Below are positions 40,740 to 51,983 of a stretch of DNA of 64,000 bases, one piece after another. Each line of letters begins with the position of its first letter. The stretch's first letter is position 1. Source of the DNA: Anaerolineae bacterium (lineage in GTDB: Bacteria > Chloroflexota > Anaerolineae > Caldilineales > Caldilineaceae); assembly GCA_030432295.1 (NCBI GenBank), contig JAUIHI010000006.1, positions 62,001 to 126,000 of the forward strand. Reading direction: 5' to 3'. A model generated the notes under the pieces. That model saw only the letters and a program-made list of their open reading frames with translations. It searched no databases and was not told where the DNA came from. The position numbers and the translations under genes were made by a program.

Positions 40740-42551
40740 CTACTGGTATGTCACATACTCCGCCGAAACCCATGTGGGACCAGCCACCGCGGGCAGGAAG
40801 AGCAACGCCCATTCGCCGTCCGGGCTGACACCAATTGCGTAGCGGGTGTCGCCGTCGTAGACGTGACTAACAATCTCGCCGTCCAGGGTTGGCGCATTGC
40901 GCACCCGCAGCCGGGGACCGCCTGTGTTGACAGTGACATTGCCGTATTTCACATTCAGGCCCACAGCGCTGACATCCACCAGTTCGCTGCCCACCCAGGC
41001 TTCTCCAGCCACATCGGGGAAGTAGATGCGCACCCACATGCCGTCCGCGCTCTTCTCGGCTATGGGGAAGATATCCCCAGCCAGCGCACCGCCGATAACC
41101 TCGGCATCGGCACTCGGACCGCTGCGCACCCGGGCCGAACGGGTATTGACTGTCGCCAATTCGGAACTGCTCATCCCTGTCATAGCGGCAGCATCACCAG
41201 CCGACATGGCCGATTCACTACCCGTAGCAGGTGCAGCGGCGGCATCCTCATCCGTGGCAGGTTCAGCGGCGGTGTCCTCATCCGTGGCAGGGGCAGCGGC
41301 GGCATCCTCATCCGTAGCGGGAGCAGCGGCGGCATCCTCGTCCGTGGCAGGTTCAGCGGCGGTGTCCTCATCCGTAGCAGGTGCAGCAGCCATATCCGAC
41401 ATCATCGGCGCGCCCACGGCATAGGCCATACTGACCGGTGCGCCATCCACAATCACAGGGGCGTCTGCACCGGGGAATTCGTAGGTCCCCACCACACCGC
41501 CATCTTCGTGGAGCATCAGGTGGACAGTTTCGGTGGCAGCGTCTGTATCAATTTCCACAGCCACGTCCGTGTTTTCGCCTTCAGCCAGGGCGGCATAGCC
41601 GATGACCGGGCCAAATGTGCCGCCGTCATCGGCGTGGACAACCAGCCAACCGGCACTCGAAGAAGTAATCGAAGGAACGGTCAACACGCCATCGACGATC
41701 TGCAAGCTGGCCGGGTCAACGTTCAGCGTAAGGGCTGGCATTGCCATCTCAGTATCATCAGCCGGAGCCTCTTCGACAGGGGCAGGTGTCTCGACCGCAG
41801 CCGGAGCCTCTTCGACAGGGGCAGGCGTTTCATCCGCAGCCGGTTCTTCTTCGATAGGGGCAGGTGTCTCAACCGCAGCCGGTTCTTCTTCGACAGGGGC
41901 AGGCGTTTCGTCCGCAGCCGGAGCCTCAGCGACAGGTTCAGGGGTTTCAACCGCAGCCGGTTCTTCGGCGACCGCTGGTTCTTCAGCGACCGCTGGTTCT
42001 TCAGCGACCGCTGGTTCTTCAGCGACCGCTGGTTCTTCAGCGACCGCTGGTTCTTCAGCGACCGCTGGTTCTTCAGCGACCGCTGGTTCTTCAGCGACCG
42101 TATCCCCACTGGGGACTGGCAATGCCATCGCGTCGCCTTCCACCGTCACAAATTCAGCCGAAACCCAGCCCAGTGTCTCCACATCGGGGATCTGAATCTG
42201 GAGCCACGTGCCGTCTTCGCTTCGGCCCAGCACTGTCACGCTATCACCCTGGCGCAGACCAGCCACAATCGGTGAATCCGTATTTGCTTCCTGGCGTACG
42301 CGGAGGGTATTGGCACTGACTGTCGCCATCACATCCGCCATCTCTACCTCGCCGGCCATACTCTCTGACGTGGCAGCGGCTTCGGCCTGGGCCTGGCCCA
42401 TAGCCTCCAGAATCTCCGCCTGCCGGGTCGGGTCCACAGGAACCGGTGTCAGCAGCAGGGAAACATCTCCCTGAAAGGGATAACAACCGGCAAATGTGAT
42501 AGTCACAGTCAGCATCACACCCAGCCAGGATGCCCGTTTTCGATTAAGCAT
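40740..42551 (-). CDS. Lipoprotein with three SH3b domains and long tandem repeats
   Basis: A 603-residue predicted lipoprotein: signal peptide with lipobox TFAGC (Cys about 22) after a basic start. SH3b domain 1 (about 75-135: TVSANTLRVRQEANTDSP ... GWVSAEFVTV) is followed by a long low-complexity linker: eight VAEEPA units, then four units of about 13 residues like APVEEEPAAVETP, a folded segment of about 120 residues (LNVDPASLQIVDGVLTVP ...), and five to six TDEDAAAAPA units. Two more SH3b domains close the protein (NTRSARVRSGPSADAEV ... and TGGPRLRVRNAPTLDGE ...). SH3b domains bind wall components. ATG 42551 has GGAGGAAGT upstream. The repeats are likely to vary in number between strains. 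Confidence 0.82.
   Translation of the reverse strand: MLNRKRASWLGVMLTVTITFAGCYPFQGDVSLLLTPVPVDPTRQAEILEAMGQAQAEAAATSESMAGEVEMADVMATVSANTLRVRQEANTDSPIVAGLRQGDSVTVLGRSEDGTWLQIQIPDVETLGWVSAEFVTVEGDAMALPVPSGDTVAEEPAVAEEPAVAEEPAVAEEPAVAEEPAVAEEPAVAEEPAVAEEPAAVETPEPVAEAPAADETPAPVEEEPAAVETPAPIEEEPAADETPAPVEEAPAAVETPAPVEEAPADDTEMAMPALTLNVDPASLQIVDGVLTVPSITSSSAGWLVVHADDGGTFGPVIGYAALAEGENTDVAVEIDTDAATETVHLMLHEDGGVVGTYEFPGADAPVIVDGAPVSMAYAVGAPMMSDMAAAPATDEDTAAEPATDEDAAAAPATDEDAAAAPATDEDTAAEPATDEDAAAAPATGSESAMSAGDAAAMTGMSSSELATVNTRSARVRSGPSADAEVIGGALAGDIFPIAEKSADGMWVRIYFPDVAGEAWVGSELVDVSAVGLNVKYGNVTVNTGGPRLRVRNAPTLDGEIVSHVYDGDTRYAIGVSPDGEWALLFLPAVAGPTWVSAEYVTYQ
41955..42098 (-). repeat. Eight tandem 18-bp units inside the SH3b lipoprotein gene
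   Basis: Eight nearly identical 18-base units encode (VAEEPA)8. Downstream in the same gene are further tandem sets of about 39 bp (41752-41935) and 30 bp (about 41222-41392). All keep the frame. Such arrays expand and contract by slippage. Confidence 0.9.
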
Positions 42552-42781
42552 ACTTCCTCCTCCGCACTGAAGCAATGATAAAGCTACAAAATTAATAGTC
42601 CTGATTAATAGTCCTGCCAAAAACCTTTTGGAACAGCCCGTCGTTGGGCTGGATCGGTCACAAATATGCGTGTAGCACGCGGGTTATTATCGCACGGGTC
42701 CTCTTCCTTGACAAATGCTGCTTTGTCCATTCATGGGAGTTAAGAAAAACGAAACCCGCCTTCGCACCCTCGCTGGACGGG

Positions 42782-44611
42782 TCAGGGAACCAGAAGTATA
42801 GCCCGCCCGACTTCGGCTGCGGTTGCGTCGTCATAGACGATCACCAAAAGCTCGGCAGCCCCCGCAATAGACGGGATTAAATGGACATCGCGCACAGTTT
42901 CGCCGGGCAGCCAGGCCGTTGTGGAAGCCACCTGGCGCAAGGGGTAGCGATCTTCCGTGCCAATTGTTTCGCCCTTGCCATCCAACAGACGCAGGGAAAG
43001 CTTCAAACGTTGGGAAGGCTGCGCAGATGGCTGCCAGTAGAAAGCCACCGCAAGGGCCGGATCGCCCGGCTGATCCAACAGGTCCAAATCATAGCCGATC
43101 AGACGCAGTTTCCCGTCGGCCAGAAGCGTATCCAGCGGATGGGATGGCGCTCCGGGTCGGGCTTCTCCCCTGGGCCAGACCCGCACCAGTACGCCTTCGC
43201 CGCTGAAACTATAGGCGTCTTCGATGCCTATCACTTCCTGGGTCAGATAGACGGGCAGCCCCGCGGCCATAGACGCTTCCACAAAGGCCCGGCGTGCGTC
43301 CGGGCTGTCCAGGGCCACGGGCTGGGCATTGGACGCTGCTCCTGTGCTGGCCTGCATCAATTGCAGGGCGGTCATCTGTCCGCGCAGACCGACGACCTGG
43401 CTGTTGGGGGGGAAGTCCACACTGGCGAGGGAAAGTGCGTAGTTGTGGGCCTCCCATTCCTGGCTGCGGTTGACCGGCGCGCCACGACCGCCGATGCCGG
43501 TGACGACGACTGTCAGCAGCAGAATGGGCGCGATCCATTGCAATCCGAAACGGTTGGCCGTCAGTCGGGGGAGCCAGAAAAGGCTGTTTCCGACTCCCAG
43601 GGCCAGGCAGAGAAAGACCGGCAGCCAGAAGACCTCCACATCGCCCACCCGGTAGTTGAGGGCAAAGAGCAGATTGGCGGCGAGAGTCAGCCAGACCAGC
43701 CCCCATTCGGCCCGTCGCTCCCGCTGGAGCAAGCCAATGACCAGCCCACCCACCCCCAATGCCAGACTTAGCCACCCAAACTGGGCCACAATCAGTTCCA
43801 GCCAATCGCCTGCCGTGCGGCTGACAGCCAGGGGATTGTCGCTGAAAAAACCGGTGTAGCCGGTCGCGAGTACGTGCCGCCAGAAACCGGTCCAGGTGTT
43901 GAGGTAATCGCCCTGCAAATCGACCGCACCCATTGCGGAACGGAGCGGAATGTAGAGATAGAGCAGCAGAGGAAGCAGAAAAGCGCCGGCCCAGCCCAGC
44001 CAACGAAACTGCGGGCGGCGCAGGCTGGGCTGGGTCCACAGCAGATAGAGGGCCAGACCGGGCAGGAGCAGCGCTGCCGTGCGGTGATGGGTGAGGGATA
44101 GCCCGGCCAGGGCGCAGAGCAGCGTCACCTGACGGCTGGAGGGTTGCTTGCCCAGAGAGATGGCGGTGTAGAGCAGGGCTACCACAAAGAGATTGTGCAG
44201 GGCGTAGACTTCGGCCACGGTTGTTTGGCTCCACCAGACCGGGCCGAGGCCAAAGGCCAGAGCCGCGCTCAGAGCGGCAGCCAACCCACCCCACCACTTC
44301 CCACCGCTCAGCCGCTTTGCCAGCAGATAGAGCAGGCCAACCGCCGCGCCACCGGCCAGGGCGCTGAAGAGATTCATACGCCAGGCCCAGTTGCCAAAGG
44401 GGAAGATCACCCGGCTCCACAGGCCACCGAGAATTGTGTAGAGCGGGTAGCCCGTGGGGTGGGCGATGGCGAAGGTGGGCGCGACCGTTTGGAATTCCAG
44501 ACTGTCGTCGAAAAGGGCAGCAATACCCGGCGCAGCGGTCAATCCGTACAAAAGAAAGGCAGCCAGGCCCACCAGCCAGCCGGACCCACTGCCCCAACCG
44601 ATCTTTTTCAC
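42782..44611 (-). CDS. DUF2723-family membrane protein (protein O-mannosyltransferase-like)
   Basis: A 609-residue membrane protein with about eleven helices in its first 400 residues and a soluble C-terminal domain. The family signature is seen early: LFDDSLEFQTVAPTF and AIAHPTGYPLYTILGGL, with the acidic pair expected at the GT-C active site. DUF2723 proteins are distant relatives of dolichyl-phosphate-mannose-dependent transferases. The GTG at 44611 follows AGGAGAAATTTC and is preferred over the ATG at 44641. It is divergent from the Amt-like gene, with a promoter region of about 200 bp between them. Confidence 0.85.
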   Translation of the reverse strand: MKKIGWGSGSGWLVGLAAFLLYGLTAAPGIAALFDDSLEFQTVAPTFAIAHPTGYPLYTILGGLWSRVIFPFGNWAWRMNLFSALAGGAAVGLLYLLAKRLSGGKWWGGLAAALSAALAFGLGPVWWSQTTVAEVYALHNLFVVALLYTAISLGKQPSSRQVTLLCALAGLSLTHHRTAALLLPGLALYLLWTQPSLRRPQFRWLGWAGAFLLPLLLYLYIPLRSAMGAVDLQGDYLNTWTGFWRHVLATGYTGFFSDNPLAVSRTAGDWLELIVAQFGWLSLALGVGGLVIGLLQRERRAEWGLVWLTLAANLLFALNYRVGDVEVFWLPVFLCLALGVGNSLFWLPRLTANRFGLQWIAPILLLTVVVTGIGGRGAPVNRSQEWEAHNYALSLASVDFPPNSQVVGLRGQMTALQLMQASTGAASNAQPVALDSPDARRAFVEASMAAGLPVYLTQEVIGIEDAYSFSGEGVLVRVWPRGEARPGAPSHPLDTLLADGKLRLIGYDLDLLDQPGDPALAVAFYWQPSAQPSQRLKLSLRLLDGKGETIGTEDRYPLRQVASTTAWLPGETVRDVHLIPSIAGAAELLVIVYDDATAAEVGRAILLVP

Positions 44612-44692: not shown

Positions 44693-44807
44693 TGCAGACT
44701 AGATTTCCGTGCGCGGCTGTTCTCAAAGCCGCCGTTTAGACCGTTGACTGGCCTTTCCCACCCAGCCGTCCGTCGGTTTTCTGTTGTTCAATGCAGGGTA
44801 TCAGCCA

Positions 44808-46289
44808 ATGGAAGCATCTGAATACTGGTTTTTGGTCGCTGCGGCCCTCTCCTTTTTGGTTCCCGCCGGTTTGATTCTGATCGGCGCGGCCGGGATTGAT
44901 CCCAAACGTTCCTGGGCCGCAGCCCTGGCCGGTCTGGCCGCGATTGGCCTGGCGGGTGTGGGCTATTGGGCCGTGGGCTTTGCCCTGCAATTTGGCGGCA
45001 TCGGCCTTTTCTACAACGAGCCGGGTTTGCAGGGGCTGGTGTGGGAGTGGAGCGCGCTGCCCGCCAACTGGGGCAGCGGCTGGGGCACGGCGGGCCTGAG
45101 CGGCTGGTTTCTCAGCGGGGACGGGATAACCCCGGCTGCGTATGCCCTCTTTCTGGCCCATCTGCCCTGGGCGGCCACCGCGGCCCTCCTGCCAGTGTTG
45201 GCCCTGCGTGGACGTGCACCGGCCATCGCGGCTCTGGTGTTGGCCCTGGGCACAGGCGCATTCTTCTATCCACTGGCGGGCAATTGGGTGCAGGGCGGCG
45301 GCTGGCTGGCAGCCCTGGGGCGAAATCTGGGTGCCGGCCACGGGATGGTCGATTTTGGCGGTGCGGGAACGGTCTTTTTGGTGGCCGCGGCCATAACCGG
45401 CGCGGCTCTGCTGGTCTGGCTGCCCCGTCGAGCGCCCCTCGGCCTGGCTGACCCCAATCTGCCCACCGTCCACCTGCCGATGCTGGCGGTAGTGGGCGCG
45501 CTGCTTCTGCCGGTGGGCGTGCTCGGCTGGAGTTGGTCGAATCCGATTCAGGCCGGGGTGATCGGCGAACTGGGGCCGCTGCGGGGCAGTGTGAACAGTC
45601 TGCTCTTTCTGATCACAGGCTCGCTGATTCCGGTTCTCTACACCTGGTTTGTCACCGGTGAGAGCGACCCGATGATGGCGGCCAGAGGGATGGCTGCCGG
45701 TGCAATCGCCGGGCTGGGCGCGGGGCCTTTTGTCACCCCCGCCGCGGCACTGGTGGTGGGCCTGTTGGCTGGCGGCTCTGTACCCTTTGTCACCTTTGCG
45801 GTCAACCGGCTGCTGCGGCTCAACGACAGCGCCGGTATCCTCAGTATGACCGTCATCCCTGCCCTGCTCGGTCTGCTCTCGGTGGGGCTGTTTGCCGACG
45901 GATCTGTGGGCGCTGGTTGGCAGATGACCGGCGTGGGCAGCTATCTGGGCGTCACCGGCCAGGGCGTGACCGGGCTGGTGGCGGCTTCCGGCTTTGTGGC
46001 CGATTTCCCCGGCCAGTTGCAGGCCCAGGTCATCGGCGCTGTGACGCTATTGTTGTGGGGTTTTGTGATGGGGAGTCTGATCTGCGTGCCCCTGGCGGCC
46101 TTGGCCCACGGCATCGACGTAGCCACGGGAGCCAACCGTCAGGGTGAACCACTTCCCTATGACGCTGCCCCAATCAGTGGCCTGGCCGAGGATGGCCTGC
46201 CCGCCGAGGAGAGACCTGTTTACGTCGTCTCCCCTGCCCGTCCCCAGTGGTCCGAACGGGAGTCAGAGCAGCCAAGGATTCGAGAGTAG
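44808..46289 (+). CDS. Amt/Rh-family membrane protein lacking the twin-histidine pair
   Basis: A 493-residue protein with about eleven hydrophobic segments whose order and loops follow the ammonium transporter family: LVPAGLILIGAAG, GVGYWAVGFALQFGG, LAHLPWAATAALLPV, PLAGNWVQGGGWLAALG and GMVDFGGAGTVF, then NDSAGILSMTVIPALLG and LLSVGLFADG. The aspartate of DFAG is kept. The two pore histidines of AmtB (H168 and H318) align with Phe in GTVF and Thr in SMTV. The ammonium-conducting mechanism therefore cannot be the standard one; it may be a sensor or carry another solute. No glnK/glnB gene is adjacent. A TTG start at 44784 is an alternative. Confidence 0.75.
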   Translation: MEASEYWFLVAAALSFLVPAGLILIGAAGIDPKRSWAAALAGLAAIGLAGVGYWAVGFALQFGGIGLFYNEPGLQGLVWEWSALPANWGSGWGTAGLSGWFLSGDGITPAAYALFLAHLPWAATAALLPVLALRGRAPAIAALVLALGTGAFFYPLAGNWVQGGGWLAALGRNLGAGHGMVDFGGAGTVFLVAAAITGAALLVWLPRRAPLGLADPNLPTVHLPMLAVVGALLLPVGVLGWSWSNPIQAGVIGELGPLRGSVNSLLFLITGSLIPVLYTWFVTGESDPMMAARGMAAGAIAGLGAGPFVTPAAALVVGLLAGGSVPFVTFAVNRLLRLNDSAGILSMTVIPALLGLLSVGLFADGSVGAGWQMTGVGSYLGVTGQGVTGLVAASGFVADFPGQLQAQVIGAVTLLLWGFVMGSLICVPLAALAHGIDVATGANRQGEPLPYDAAPISGLAEDGLPAEERPVYVVSPARPQWSERESEQPRIRE

Positions 46290-46391: not shown

Positions 46392-46985
46392 CTATCCGGC
46401 CAACCCAAACCGGTCCAGCACACTATAGACCGCTCCCCCTGGCCGCAGCTCACTGCGCATCAGCACCAATTCCGAGACTTCCCACTGGCCCAGAGATTGG
46501 GCCAGTGCTGTTTGCCCGGCCAGGAATGTGCCCGTCTGGGCGATCAGCCCGTTCTGCGCGTCCCGGCTGACACGGGCCAGTGTCAGATGCGGGTGGAAGC
46601 CCTGGCGCTCGACGGCAAAGCCGCACGCCTGCACCCCCGCTTCCACCTCTTTTTGCAGGCCCTCCAAACGCTGCATCTCCCCCGTCAATCCCGCCCACAG
46701 CACCCGCATCCTGCGCCAGTTGGGGAAAGCTCCTAAACCGTCCAAAGTGAGCGAAAAAAGTGGGCAGTCTGACGTCGCTTTTTCCAGCATTGCGCCGATC
46801 TGCTGGCGCTGTGCGGCTGTTGTGTCACCCAAAAAGCGCAGTGTCAGGTGATAGTTGCGCTGCTCAGTCCAGCGCAGGACGGAGGCCGCGTTCTGTTCGG
46901 CCAATCCCGCTGCCAGTTCTCCGGCCAGAGCAAAGAGGCGGTTGCGCAGTTCTTCGGGAATTTCAACGGCGATGAATGTTCGCAT
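46392..46985 (-). CDS. thpR: RNA 2',3'-cyclic phosphodiesterase ThpR
   Basis: A 197-residue member of the 2H phosphoesterase superfamily. Both catalytic H-x-T/S motifs are present: NYHLTLRFLGDTT and FHPHLTLARVSRD. The N-terminus RTFIAVEIPEELRNRLF is typical of ThpR (formerly LigT), which opens 2',3'-cyclic phosphates on RNA ends. The ATG at 46985 is chosen by alignment with the family; the frame stays open upstream through an unrelated aldo/keto reductase remnant and the resulting 49 extra residues are not part of the protein. Confidence 0.93.
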   Translation of the reverse strand: MRTFIAVEIPEELRNRLFALAGELAAGLAEQNAASVLRWTEQRNYHLTLRFLGDTTAAQRQQIGAMLEKATSDCPLFSLTLDGLGAFPNWRRMRVLWAGLTGEMQRLEGLQKEVEAGVQACGFAVERQGFHPHLTLARVSRDAQNGLIAQTGTFLAGQTALAQSLGQWEVSELVLMRSELRPGGAVYSVLDRFGLAG

Positions 46986-46990
46986 TTGCT

Positions 46991-47141
46991 CTAGCAGACG
47001 GTGGCGATGTGGCCAGCGGCGTCTCCGCCCAACTCCCGCAGGACAGCGCCCAGATTGGCCGTTGCCGTACATCGAAGCCGTGTCAAAACAGGTGACGCCG
47101 AGTTCGATGGCTCTGGCGACGGTAGCCCGCATATCCGGATT
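46991..47141 (-). pseudogene. Aldo/keto reductase remnant
   Basis: On the minus strand, MRATVARAIELGVTCFDTASMYGNGQ matches the second strand and helix of aldo/keto reductases (the catalytic Asp and Tyr lie in this stretch). A shift of frame follows, after which NLGAVLRELGGDAAGHIATV continues the same family until a stop at 46991-46993. Both the beginning and the rest of the barrel are missing. The left break adjoins thpR; the right break lies beside the 47-nt repeat. Confidence 0.75.
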
Positions 47142-48026: not shown

Positions 48027-51000
48027 TTAAACTTCGCGCGGCGGCAGTTTGGGCAACGCCCGGCTGGGACGGCTGCTGGCATCCGGCGGCTGCATAGGCG
48101 GCTTGGCTTCCAGCAGTTTCAGGATTTCGTCGATGGCGCGCTCCAGTTGGGTATCCCGCCCGGCCTGGTAGTCCTGGGGGGTGATGTCCACTTCGATGTC
48201 CGGATCGGTCCCGTAATTTTCCACACTCCAGCCCACATCCTCAAACCAGAAGCTGAACTCTGGCTGGGTGGTGACTGTGCCGTCCACCAGCGCGTGGCGG
48301 GGCCAGATGCCCACGACGCCGCCCCAGGTGCGCTTGCCCACCAGCGGCCCCAGTCCCATCATTTTGAAGCTGTGGCTGAAGATGTCGCCGTCGCTGCCCG
48401 CGTGTTCGTTGGTCAGGGCCAGCAGGGGACCGGCTACCGATTCTCGCGGGTAGGGGGTGTAACCGCCCCAGCGTTCCAGATCGTAGCCCAGACGCCGCCG
48501 GGCCAGCTTGTCCAGGAGCAGGGAGCTGACATTGCCGCCGCCGTTGAAGCGCACATCCACAATCAGCGCGGGCTTGTCCACCTCGGCCAGATAGCCCCGG
48601 TGAAACTCGGCATAGCCGTTGCTGCCCATATCCGGGATGTGGACGTAGCCCACCTGCTCGTGGCTGGCTTCGTGAACCCGTTGGCGATTGGCGTTGACCC
48701 AGGCCCGGTAGCGGGCGGCCTGCTCGCTGGCAAGGGTCTGGACAGTGACTGTGCGCAGTCCGTTCTCCTCTTTGGGCTTGCGCCGTTTGCCCTCTTTCTT
48801 TGTTGTATCGTTCTTTACTGTGTCGTCGCCATCTGCGCTCTGCTTGTCCGCAGCCGCTTCGTCTGGCGTCTCCGGCGTCTCCTTGGCGGCTTCTGCTTTG
48901 CGCCAGATCGTCAGCATTACCTCTTCGTGGGCCTGGTTCACCAACAACTGGGCCGGGCTGACGGCTTTGCTGACCGGCTGGCCGTTGACCGCCACCAGCA
49001 GATCGCCGGGGCGTACGCTTACACCGGGCGCGGCCAGGGGCGAATGGGCCTGTTCGTCCCAGGGATCGCCCAGGATGAAATTCTCCAGCCGGTAGCCTTT
49101 GGCCGCGTCGTCCCACAGCGCGTCCGCGCCCAGGAAGCCCTGATTGAAGCTGGTGCGGGGGCGATAGTCGCCGCCGATTTCGTAGGCGTGGCTCGTACCC
49201 AATTCCCCCTGCATCTCCCACATCAGATCGCTGAACTCCGTGCGGCTGCTCACCCGCTGGATGAGGGGGAAGTAGCGGTGATAGACCGTCTGCCAGTCCA
49301 CCTCGGACATCTCCTCATTCCAGAAGTGGTCCCGTTGCAACCGCCAGGCTTCCCGGAACATCTGCTCCCATTCGCTCTGGGGGTCTACAGAGACTTTGGC
49401 CCGGCCCAGGCTGATCCAGCCAGTTTTGCGGGGACTGCCGCTCTCGCTGGCGGGCTTCTCCCCAGCAGGGATGACCCGCAGACGGCCATGGGCCCAGTAG
49501 ATCAGCTTCTTGCGGTTGCGGGAGAGGGCGAAGGATTGGACGCCATCCACCAGTGTATCGGCCCGAAATTCCTTGAAATTCCAGGCCCGCAGCAGACCGT
49601 CGCCGCCGCTGCCATCTTCCTCTCCGTCGTCGTCTTCCTGGCTGCCTTTGATGGGCAAAATTGTGAAGAGCGCCTTGCCCGGTGCGCCAGCGATGCGCCC
49701 GTAGCGACCCTCCGGCACGGGGAAAGCCAGCACCCGGTCGGCGATGCCCTCCAGATCGATACGGATGAACTTCTTCTTTTTGGTCTTGCCTGCTTTCTCC
49801 TGCTCACCCTCTTTGCCGTCGCTGGGCGACTTGCCATCCTTTGGCTTTTCCTGGGCAGTGGCTTCTCCCCCATTTTCATCAGCGCCGGTCCAGCGCCGGG
49901 CGTGGGCAGCGCCAAAACGGGAAAATGAGCGGCTTTCGTCTTCCTCGTCGTCGTAGTCGTCGTCTAAACCGTCCAGATCGTCGTCCAGGTCGCCGGGGTC
50001 GTCGTCCGGGTCTTCGCCTTCCAAATCGTCGTCCAGAGGCAGGTGGTCGTCGTCTTCCTCGTCCCCGTCCTCTTCGCCCCCACCCTCTTCGCTTTCGTCG
50101 CCCTCGTCTTCGTCTTCCAATTCGTCGTCGTCCAGTTCGTCATCATCCTCATCCGCGTCCATCTCCGGTTCTTCGTCGGGCTGGGGAATGAACGGGTTGG
50201 GCAGATCGGCCTGAAGGGTGATCAGATAGGGGCGCACGCCGCGAGGGAAACTGAGCGCGAAGGAAAGTGTGTCGTTGACCGGGTTGAACTCCCGGTAGGA
50301 GAGAAAGTAGAGATAGCGACCCTCCGCGTCGAAGGCCGGGCGCACATCCCGCAGCACCGGACGGGTGACGGGGAAGACTTTCCCCTCGCGCAGGCTCTCA
50401 TCCTCAGCTTCGGGGTCCGCCAGGCGAAAGAGACGGATTTCGGTGGTCTGGTGGGTGGCGGCAAAGCCATAGGCCAGCCAGCGGCCATCCGGCGACCAGT
50501 CCACGCCGCCGATGCGCTGGAAGGGGCTACGATCGACGACAGTCACCGCCTGGCTTTCCAGATCGATGAGCAGCAGTTCGTGGCGGTGGTTGGTCAAGGC
50601 CACCCGGTCGTGGGTAGGGGAGACGGAATAGTCGATGGCCCGCCCGAACTCTGCACTGTCGAGAAGTTTGGGTGCGACGCCCGGCTCCCGGCTGTGAATC
50701 TCCAGCCGCTCCTCGCCGCTGGCATCGCTGACGAGCAGCAGCCGCTTGCCGTCGTTGAGATAGTCGGCCAGGCGATAGCGCACCCCATCCCGCTGGCCCA
50801 GTTGGATCACCGCGCCCTCCTGGTTGTGGAAGGCGAAGGCTTTGCCCCGGGTGGTGATGGCGATAGCCGTGCCCGCGGGGTTCAGGCCAGCGCTGTCCAG
50901 ATAGCGGCTGGCGTTGACAAATTTGCGGTTGCGCTGGACCCGGGGACTGCGATAGGTGACTTCGACTTTGTGGCTGGTTCCATCCGCGGGGTCAAAGACG

Positions 51001-51779
51001 TAGAGATCGGCCCCCGCGTGATAGACGATGCGCTGGCCGTCGCTGGCTGGGTTGCGGGCGTAGTAGTCCGCGTGATCCGTGTGGCGGGTCAGGTCGCTGC
51101 CGTCGGGCCGGGCACTGTAGAGGTTGCCGATGCCCTCGTGATCGCTGACAAAATAGATGCGGCCCGCTGCTTCGCCATTGACGATCCACATAGGGGAGGC
51201 GATGTTTCCGGCCATATCGGGCAAAAAGGGCTGAAAGTCGCCGTCCCCGTTGCTGTCCAGCCAGAGATGGCCGGCTGTGCCGCCCCGGTAGCGCTTCCAG
51301 CGTGCGGGGTCGCCGGTGTTGCGTCCCAGCACCACACCGCCATTTGGGCCAAAATCCAGAGAGCGGGCCGGGCCATAGGGCAACTTTTCCACCGCGCCGT
51401 TGGCCGCGTCTGCCGCCACCTGATAAATTTCATATTCGCCCCGATGGGCCTGACCGTAGGCAGACATAAAGAGAATGCGACTGGGGCCGCCATCCCGACT
51501 CCAGCCCAGCACCCGGCAGTCGCTGCCCAGATAGGTCAAGCGTCGGGCCTCGCCCCCTTCGGCGGGCATTGCGTAGATTTCGGAGTTGCCCTCTTCCCGC
51601 CCGACAAAGGCCAGGGATGCGCCGTCCGGCGAATAGAAGGGGTAGGTGACGCTGCCCAGGTTGGCGGTCAAACGCCGGGCTACACCGCCGCTGACCGGGA
51701 CCTCCCAGAGGTCGTCCTCGGAGACAAAGGCGATGCGGTCGCTGTGGATGGTGGGAAAACGATAGTAGCCGATTGTCAT
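48027..51779 (-). CDS. Tricorn-like S41 protease with a large acidic insert
   Basis: A 1250-residue cytoplasmic-type tricorn protease homologue; no signal peptide is seen. Two beta-propeller regions (residues 1-310 and about 310-780), a PDZ domain (SVRPGDLLVAVNGQPVS) and the S41 core follow the tricorn order. Catalytic residues align: GTSHAYEIGG (His about 864), AGSDGDIFSHSF (Ser about 1129) and VENYGTDPDIEVD (Glu about 1187). Two insertions stand out: a block of about 85 residues near 560-645 that is nearly all Asp and Glu, and a Lys/Glu/Asp-rich stretch of about 45 residues between the PDZ and protease parts. The start MTIGYYRFPTIHSDRIAF is typical; the frame upstream to 51884 crosses a hairpin. 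Confidence 0.92.
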   Translation of the reverse strand: MTIGYYRFPTIHSDRIAFVSEDDLWEVPVSGGVARRLTANLGSVTYPFYSPDGASLAFVGREEGNSEIYAMPAEGGEARRLTYLGSDCRVLGWSRDGGPSRILFMSAYGQAHRGEYEIYQVAADAANGAVEKLPYGPARSLDFGPNGGVVLGRNTGDPARWKRYRGGTAGHLWLDSNGDGDFQPFLPDMAGNIASPMWIVNGEAAGRIYFVSDHEGIGNLYSARPDGSDLTRHTDHADYYARNPASDGQRIVYHAGADLYVFDPADGTSHKVEVTYRSPRVQRNRKFVNASRYLDSAGLNPAGTAIAITTRGKAFAFHNQEGAVIQLGQRDGVRYRLADYLNDGKRLLLVSDASGEERLEIHSREPGVAPKLLDSAEFGRAIDYSVSPTHDRVALTNHRHELLLIDLESQAVTVVDRSPFQRIGGVDWSPDGRWLAYGFAATHQTTEIRLFRLADPEAEDESLREGKVFPVTRPVLRDVRPAFDAEGRYLYFLSYREFNPVNDTLSFALSFPRGVRPYLITLQADLPNPFIPQPDEEPEMDADEDDDELDDDELEDEDEGDESEEGGGEEDGDEEDDDHLPLDDDLEGEDPDDDPGDLDDDLDGLDDDYDDEEDESRSFSRFGAAHARRWTGADENGGEATAQEKPKDGKSPSDGKEGEQEKAGKTKKKKFIRIDLEGIADRVLAFPVPEGRYGRIAGAPGKALFTILPIKGSQEDDDGEEDGSGGDGLLRAWNFKEFRADTLVDGVQSFALSRNRKKLIYWAHGRLRVIPAGEKPASESGSPRKTGWISLGRAKVSVDPQSEWEQMFREAWRLQRDHFWNEEMSEVDWQTVYHRYFPLIQRVSSRTEFSDLMWEMQGELGTSHAYEIGGDYRPRTSFNQGFLGADALWDDAAKGYRLENFILGDPWDEQAHSPLAAPGVSVRPGDLLVAVNGQPVSKAVSPAQLLVNQAHEEVMLTIWRKAEAAKETPETPDEAAADKQSADGDDTVKNDTTKKEGKRRKPKEENGLRTVTVQTLASEQAARYRAWVNANRQRVHEASHEQVGYVHIPDMGSNGYAEFHRGYLAEVDKPALIVDVRFNGGGNVSSLLLDKLARRRLGYDLERWGGYTPYPRESVAGPLLALTNEHAGSDGDIFSHSFKMMGLGPLVGKRTWGGVVGIWPRHALVDGTVTTQPEFSFWFEDVGWSVENYGTDPDIEVDITPQDYQAGRDTQLERAIDEILKLLEAKPPMQPPDASSRPSRALPKLPPREV

Positions 51780-51799
51780 GCAACCCCGCTTTGTGACCA

Positions 51800-51832
51800 A
51801 AAAGTTGGACTTCGCGCAGAAGTCCAACTTTT
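51800..51832. repeat. 14-bp perfect hairpin in the leader of the tricorn-like gene
   Basis: AAAAGTTGGACTTC (51800-51813) and GAAGTCCAACTTTT (51819-51832) are exact reverse complements around GCGCA. It begins 20 bases upstream of the tricorn ATG (51779, minus strand). Sequence and position resemble the hairpin before the Uma2 gene (34690-34721). Confidence 0.75.
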
Positions 51833-51983
51833 GTTGTGTGAAAGATAGACGAGTAGTATACCGTTTGGCTGGATGGGCTGGCAAATTTTTCTTGAATGTT
51901 CAGACTGAAAACTCCTTTGCATCTGTATTGCTTTGGGGTAGGATGTGGGGTACAGAAGCACTCCACCGACTGGAAAGAATTCG

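Follow-up and report, generated by a model that had tools for sequence, protein, structure and literature searches.

The window, by which we mean the whole stretch of 64,000 nucleotides of Caldilineaceae (Chloroflexota) DNA that was analysed, contains a gene for a 493-residue protein of the Amt fold, flanked on either side by a gene on the opposite strand (Table 1). The reading frame opens with an ATG, and a TTG at 44784 is an alternative start codon.

Table 1. Features of the Amt-like locus, with positions counted from the first nucleotide of the window
Feature	Position	Strand	Codon	Basis
Coding sequence of the Amt-fold protein without the twin-His pair	44808..46289	+		Open reading frame, Pfam, structure model
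D182 (D160 of AmtB, Asp of the S1 site, kept)	45351..45353	+	GAT	Alignments
F190 (position of H168 of AmtB)	45375..45377	+	TTT	Alignments
R293 (position of S263 of AmtB, pore exit)	45684..45686	+	AGA	Alignment
D340 (D310 of AmtB, kept)	45825..45827	+		Alignments
T348 (position of H318 of AmtB)	45849..45851	+	ACC	Alignments
LigT/ThpR-type gene, convergent downstream neighbour	46392..46985	-		Pfam, synteny, translation
Gene for a TMEM260-like membrane protein, upstream and divergent	42782..44611	-		Pfam, synteny

Three other genes or gene fragments lie nearby, all of them on the reverse strand. Upstream of the start of the LigT/ThpR-type gene, an open frame (46986-47132) contains a 25-residue stretch similar to aldo/keto reductases (PF00248, 18 bits, below the cut-off of 24), which is probably the remnant of a gene. 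The product of the gene at 40740-42620 combines bacterial SH3 domains with a DUF7282 domain, and the gene harbours three internal arrays of tandem repeats (an 18-bp unit in 7.9 copies, units of 39/78/117 bp, and units of 30/90 bp). A Tricorn-type protease (Tricorn_C1, PDZ_Tricorn and Peptidase_S41) is encoded at 48027-51884, and its translation displays a long Asp/Glu-rich insert.

Residues 7-431 of the 493-residue protein match PF00909 (Ammonium_transp) with an E value of 1.6e-27 and 96.7 bits, against a curated cut-off of 23.2. The NCBIfam model TIGR00836 ('amt') gave 96.3 bits, and its cut-off of 343.3, which delimits the orthodox Amt subfamily, was not reached. Judged by these two profiles, the protein is a member of the Amt superfamily that lies outside the orthodox Amt subfamily. 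A second Pfam domain was not found at an E value of 0.01, and hence no fused output domain. The AlphaFold2 model, based on an alignment of 39 sequences, has the Amt fold (pLDDT 89.3, pTM 0.88; pLDDT is below 50 for most of residues 445-493), and the top-ranked solved structures were Amt/Mep proteins, including AfAmt1 (2b2f; Z 43.2, rmsd 2.3, 371 residues aligned), Ks-Amt5 (6eu6; Z 42.8) and AmtB (1xqe; Z 42.0); the AmtB variant 2npd gave Z 41.7. The Z scores were 31.8-36.0 for Rh proteins and near 13 for urea transporters. A receptor function deduced from this ranking was rejected: receptor Amts are indeed among the best matches, but their Z scores tie with those of transporters.

An earlier note on this DNA had described the protein as an Amt-family member in which Phe and Thr occupy the positions of the two pore histidines, while the motifs of ammonium transporters, including the aspartate, are kept. 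This description proved correct. With reference to the E. coli K-12 record of AmtB, H168 corresponds to F190 and H318 to T348, each located eight residues after a conserved Asp without any gap; both Asp residues (D160 and D310 of AmtB) are kept as D182 and D340, and so is the periplasmic GGGWL loop. The remainder of the pore is also altered. Both residues of the Phe gate are replaced by Trp (F107 by W121, F215 by W241), the S1 site has Q162 in place of W148 and N245 in place of S219, and further changes affect W212 (V238), Y32 (G26) and S263 (R293). The histidines of the protein are H118 (at the position of AmtB Q104), H178, H222 and H434, none of them at a twin-His site.

The alignment register was supported in several ways. 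A profile-profile comparison with hhalign of 15 family members against 14 classical Amts (probability 100, E 9.6e-74) paired F190 with H168 and T348 with H318. When phmmer aligned the protein with AmtB chain 2npd, it opened a one-residue gap that set L191, rather than F190, opposite residue 168, neither of them being a His. The idea that the true His sites had been misaligned was rejected, because three alignments agree and because all of the 28 family members that possess both His have them in the identical ungapped register. Between the first Asp and site 168, 107 of 121 family rows show no gap, and between the second Asp and site 318 this holds for 117 of 121; where gaps do occur, the exact residue at the twin-His site is less sure. 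Seventeen of the aligned rows belong to the lineage of the window (16 with its family code, plus a Caldilineaceae record, L076), and 15 of these have Phe and two have His at 168, with no His at 318 in any of them, which rules out a sequencing slip.

Simulations of AmtB described in passages of PMC3647058 list H168, H318, Y32, S263 and I110 as residues hydrogen-bonding to the substrate. The 493-residue protein has F, T, G, R and T there, respectively. Part of this deviation is common to close classical Amts, which differ from AmtB at three of these positions: Glu occupies 32, Thr occupies 110 and Asn occupies 263, in each case in 13 of 15 rows. Judged by its residues, the middle of the pore would be filled by mostly non-polar side chains (Phe190, Trp121, Trp241, Val238 and the small Thr348), and from this we infer that the pore is occluded.

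Of 298 sampled genomes of the protein's class, 188 had a match to it at E <= 1e-10, some of these matches being classical Amts; of 400 sampled genomes of the phylum, 51 had one at 1e-15. Among ten fetched phylum matches from outside the class, two were family members and eight classical. The named relatives among the matches listed come from Caldilineaceae, Anaerolineae and other Chloroflexota metagenome-assembled genomes; the aligned part of one named relative (L075) does not differ from that of a genome locus bearing the family code of the window. The alignment comprised 136 distinct sequences (121 of the family and 15 classical) after removal of L088, which is shorter than 330 residues, and of ten duplicates. 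The tree was built from 135 rows, 120 of them of the family, with ten pore columns removed and with L069 left out owing to a gap at 168. The 15 classical rows, which a starred branch separates from the rest of the tree, were chosen by a residue string containing both His and thus keep both by definition. An earlier tree of 73 rows had already split 67 family rows from six classical ones (100/100, with the bootstrap not fully settled).

Among the 120 family rows on the tree, which come mostly from the window's class of Chloroflexota, 81 have neither His, 28 have both, six have only H318 and five only H168. The fewest changes explaining this distribution are 13 for H168 and ten for H318, counts which come from a quick tree, with 42 of 132 inner branches supported below 80%, and which alone cannot separate gain from loss. 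Loss is nevertheless the natural reading of the distribution, since classical Amts keep both His: among the matches listed, at least 80 loci were divided by score (<= 306 versus >= 412 bits), and not by His, into 67 classical Amts, all with both His, and 13 family loci, four with both. It appears, therefore, that the twin-His pair was lost repeatedly within the family. As to whether the two His went together, the seven independent pairs on starred branches gave a median p of 0.25 in a sign test, which is statistically no more than suggestive. The residues found in the 81 His-less rows are F (50), Y (8), L (8), A (7), G (6), V (1) and S (1) at position 168, and A (24), F (21), G (10), L (9), T (7), Y (6), C (1), I (1), V (1) and S (1) at position 318; D, E, K, R, N and Q occur at neither site in these rows. 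Where only one His is missing (11 rows), its place is taken by Asn, Gln or Phe in the case of site 168 and by Ser or Asn in that of site 318.

The genomic context was compared in 30 neighbourhoods: 20 from fetched genomes, that in the window, and nine around named family loci (the other four of these 13 are on short contigs and were left out). In 21 of the 30, the Amt-like gene is followed downstream by a LigT-type gene, which is convergent in all 21. This stable order extends over several family codes of the class (L155-L174, L075-L086 and the window). An operon with LigT was rejected on account of the convergent orientation, which likewise gives no ground to infer a shared function. Six of the 21 LigT-flanked loci encode a protein with both His, 14 with neither and one with a single His; members with and without His at the same locus are thus positional orthologues, and the pair apparently went within such orthologues. 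Upstream, TMEM260-like genes were found in 10 of the 30 neighbourhoods and Mut7-C genes in nine; with a single exception, these genes are on the opposite strand. No signalling gene, and no metabolic gene that would hint at a substrate, was found among the named recurrent neighbours in the 30 neighbourhoods.

The genome of the window also encodes two orthodox Amts (411.7 and 398.5 bits). A PII gene adjacent to an orthodox Amt gene is common, although not universal, and the sole PII match of this genome indeed adjoins an orthodox Amt and not the gene studied here. By a threshold of our own choice for the presence of a classical Amt (E <= 1e-75; L076, L085, L225 and L226 left out), a classical Amt is absent from 28 of the 63 genomes that have a His-less member and a completeness of at least 90%, and from 11 of 20 equally complete genomes that have a both-His member. 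In four genomes of the class (G252:C35, G055:C5, G281:C517 and G288:C420), orthodox Amt matches lie in open frames of 1101-1683 residues, which are possibly Amt-sensor fusions.

The family genes look constrained. In eight pairs of close relatives dN/dS was 0.074-0.186, which is 1.5 to 5 times the values of 0.018-0.067 that an orthodox Amt gave when the same genomes were paired; the protein of the window itself was part of one pair only, with 0.294 at a dS of 1.09. Selection on the relatives is purifying, then, and looser than on orthodox Amts. Its distribution along the protein was assessed as mean pairwise identity, using loop and transmembrane (TM) segment borders of our own. With one His-less row taken for each family code (22 rows), identity was 0.46 in periplasmic loops, 0.35 in TM segments and 0.29 in cytoplasmic loops, versus 0.52, 0.52 and 0.67 in 66 classical Amts. 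Ten one-per-family rows with both His followed the same loop pattern as the His-less ones (0.57, 0.46 and 0.45).

Classical Amts conserve a set of eleven pore positions much better than their TM segments as a whole (identity 0.92 versus 0.52), which the His-less rows do not (0.34 versus 0.35); in the both-His one-per-family rows the set was not clearly above TM either (rank 0.85). When the His columns were excluded, the rank of the pore was 0.93-0.96 in two His-keeping lineages and 0.25-0.89 in seven His-less lineages, 0.47 and 0.61 in the one-per-family rows of the two kinds, that is without excess, and 1.000 in classical Amts. The notion that constraint on the pore vanished exactly with the His is therefore weakened by the His-keeping control rows. 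Because the pore shows no excess conservation in the one-per-family rows of either kind, its change is family-wide and may predate the loss of the His; in other words, the pore may have been altered already across the whole family, with His loss as a late step.

The earlier note had concluded that the protein probably transports or senses something other than ammonium. The first half of this statement, which denies the protein ammonium transport of the AmtB type, stands up well: both His are gone, the positions of F107, F215, W212 and S263 are changed, and published double-His mutants do not transport. The second half gained no such support, in that neither a substrate nor a fused output domain nor a signalling neighbour was found from the sequence. 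We consider it highly probable that the protein is not an electrogenic ammonium transporter of the AmtB type, and we judge it to be a repurposed Amt. According to passages of PMC7447429, AmtB H168A/H318A still binds NH4+, yet neither transports it nor sustains growth on low ammonium, and in those of PMC3647058 double-His variants of AmtB and Mep2 lose transport of ammonia and methylamine, W212A being inactive as well.

The reading that we favour, with a probability of roughly 40%, is that the protein is a non-transporting, periplasm-facing pseudo-transporter that binds a small ligand or has a structural role. Without the twin-His bridge there would be neither a proton relay nor a cycle of NH4+ deprotonation, and the mostly non-polar filling of the pore would let neither NH4+ nor K+ leak. 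Selection would hold most strongly the periplasmic face with the Asp182 vestibule, where the Amt scaffold might bind a small ligand (possibly still NH4+) and report it, unless its role is structural. This reading is preferred because selection is strongest on the periplasmic face, the pore seems filled and the twin-His pair is gone. Among the points against it, a 'receptor' that has no output domain and no signalling neighbour is one without a visible partner, members that keep their His share the loop pattern, the change of the pore belongs to the family as a whole, and the window's own protein entered a single dN/dS pair. The choice of replacements can be viewed in the same light. Charged substitutions in AmtB (H168D/E, H168D/H318E) are leaky and unselective, with a wet pore open to K+ (passages of PMC9040831), and the uncharged residues at the twin-His sites of the family would fit, by analogy, a selection against leaks.

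Second in rank, possible but on balance unlikely, we place a facilitator of an uncharged small solute, whose His-free, mostly hydrophobic pore would pass NH3, another gas or a small neutral amine by diffusion, with no proton coupling. If conserved, a hydrophobic pore might let a neutral solute through, and the complete lack of charged residues, Asn and Gln at both sites of the 81 His-less rows agrees with this; moreover, in the 28 of 63 genomes where our threshold detects no classical Amt, the protein could be the sole conduit of the Amt type. However, conservation of the pore in the His-less lineages does not exceed that of the TM segments at large, Trp in both places of the gate together with Phe at the H168 position suggests a narrower pore, and the AmtB double-His variants lose growth on ammonium (passages of PMC7447429 and PMC3647058).

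A channel or carrier for another charged substrate appears improbable. What speaks for it is the Arg at the position of S263, at the channel exit of AmtB (passages of PMC3647058), which would suit an anion or offset a carboxylate. This Arg occurs in 112 of 121 family rows and, among the matches listed, in 12 of 13 family loci and in none of the 67 classical Amts. It is equally present in all 28 members with both His, though, and may merely pair with the kept D340; besides, the twin-His sites are uncharged and mostly non-polar, and no metabolic neighbour hints at a substrate. GlnK plugs AmtB with Arg47 at the same channel-exit end (passages of PMC4274968), and the parallel with the family Arg is only suggestive.

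Still less credit is due to an ordinary ammonium transporter that employs another proton route, through H118 or the kept D182. The D160 equivalent is retained in 107 of 109 rows with both or neither His, and a His at position 104 is found in the window's lineage, but the twin-His pair, W212 and both residues of the Phe gate are changed, the genome already possesses two orthodox Amts, and the AmtB variants lacking both His do not transport (passages of PMC7447429 and PMC3647058).

Amt proteins form trimers. A non-conducting subunit in mixed trimers with an orthodox Amt, similar to RhCE/RhD with RhAG, could find its partner in the window's own genome; such a role is nonetheless very unlikely, as the His-less protein is not generally the partner of an orthodox Amt, given the 28 of 63 genomes without a classical one. 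Finally, a decaying gene or an assembly error, to which the raised dN/dS values might point, was rejected as hardly conceivable, being largely contradicted by dN/dS values all well below 1, intact frames in many genomes, a recurrent locus and a confidently predicted fold.

Returning to the pseudo-transporter, a history can be outlined tentatively, and with rather more doubt than confidence, of a Chloroflexota 'post-transport' Amt clade in which the exit Arg and the rebuilding of the Phe gate came first and were followed by many twin-His losses at one locus, giving a sealed periplasm-facing pseudo-transporter or a pore for a neutral solute. If this is true, the natural series of members with both, one and no His would allow the role of the twin-His pair to be probed with mutants made by evolution. 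The family is thus natural test material in the dispute on whether this pair serves in deprotonation, as a proton relay or in the prevention of leaks. In practical terms, the annotation 'ammonium transporter' is unsafe in those Chloroflexota genomes in which a His-less protein is the sole PF00909 match found. No report of a His-less Amt family of Chloroflexota was found in the open-licence PMC articles searched.

The AmtB-type transporters, E. coli AmtB and A. fulgidus Amt1, share with the 493-residue protein the fold (Z about 42-43), D160 and D310, and the periplasmic GGGWL loop. They differ in that H168/H318, F107/F215, W148, W212, S219, Y32 and S263 are intact in AmtB; the TIGR00836 score and the absence of an adjacent PII gene further separate our protein from them. 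The AmtB chain that scored best by sequence, 2npd, likewise has Phe at 168, but it is a laboratory variant and retains H318. The Amt fold is also common to the Amt-type ammonium receptors Ks-Amt5 (6eu6) and Sd-Amt1 (8qj3); our protein has neither the Phe gate nor the twin-His pair nor a fused domain. The pore of Ks-Amt5 seems occluded, with Phe gate and twin-His kept (passages of PMC10433425), and its fused domain is a histidine kinase (passages of PMC5764959).

The human erythroid RhCE and RhD appear to be Amt/Rh-fold proteins devoid of pore His, which partner RhAG and are not known to transport; they belong, however, to the eukaryotic Rh branch, act in mixed complexes and are unrelated to the bacterial family. 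No confirmation that RhCE and RhD lack the pore His was found in open-licence PMC articles. The fungal Mep1 and Mep3 do transport, and differ from the present case in that a single His is changed, to a charged residue. This natural change is Glu at the first His (passages of PMC7447429 and PMC9040831), and the former, a 2020 mechanistic paper, states that natural sequences vary in the twin-His motif only by this Glu, found in some fungal Meps, to which the 81 of 120 family members with neither His and the 11 with one stand in contrast. The closest comparison is provided by the twin-His-keeping members of the family itself (e.g. L020, L028 and L035), which belong to the same clade, have Arg at 263 and, in most cases, a Trp or Leu gate, are in part found at the same LigT locus, and differ by the presence of both His in 28 of the 120 rows.
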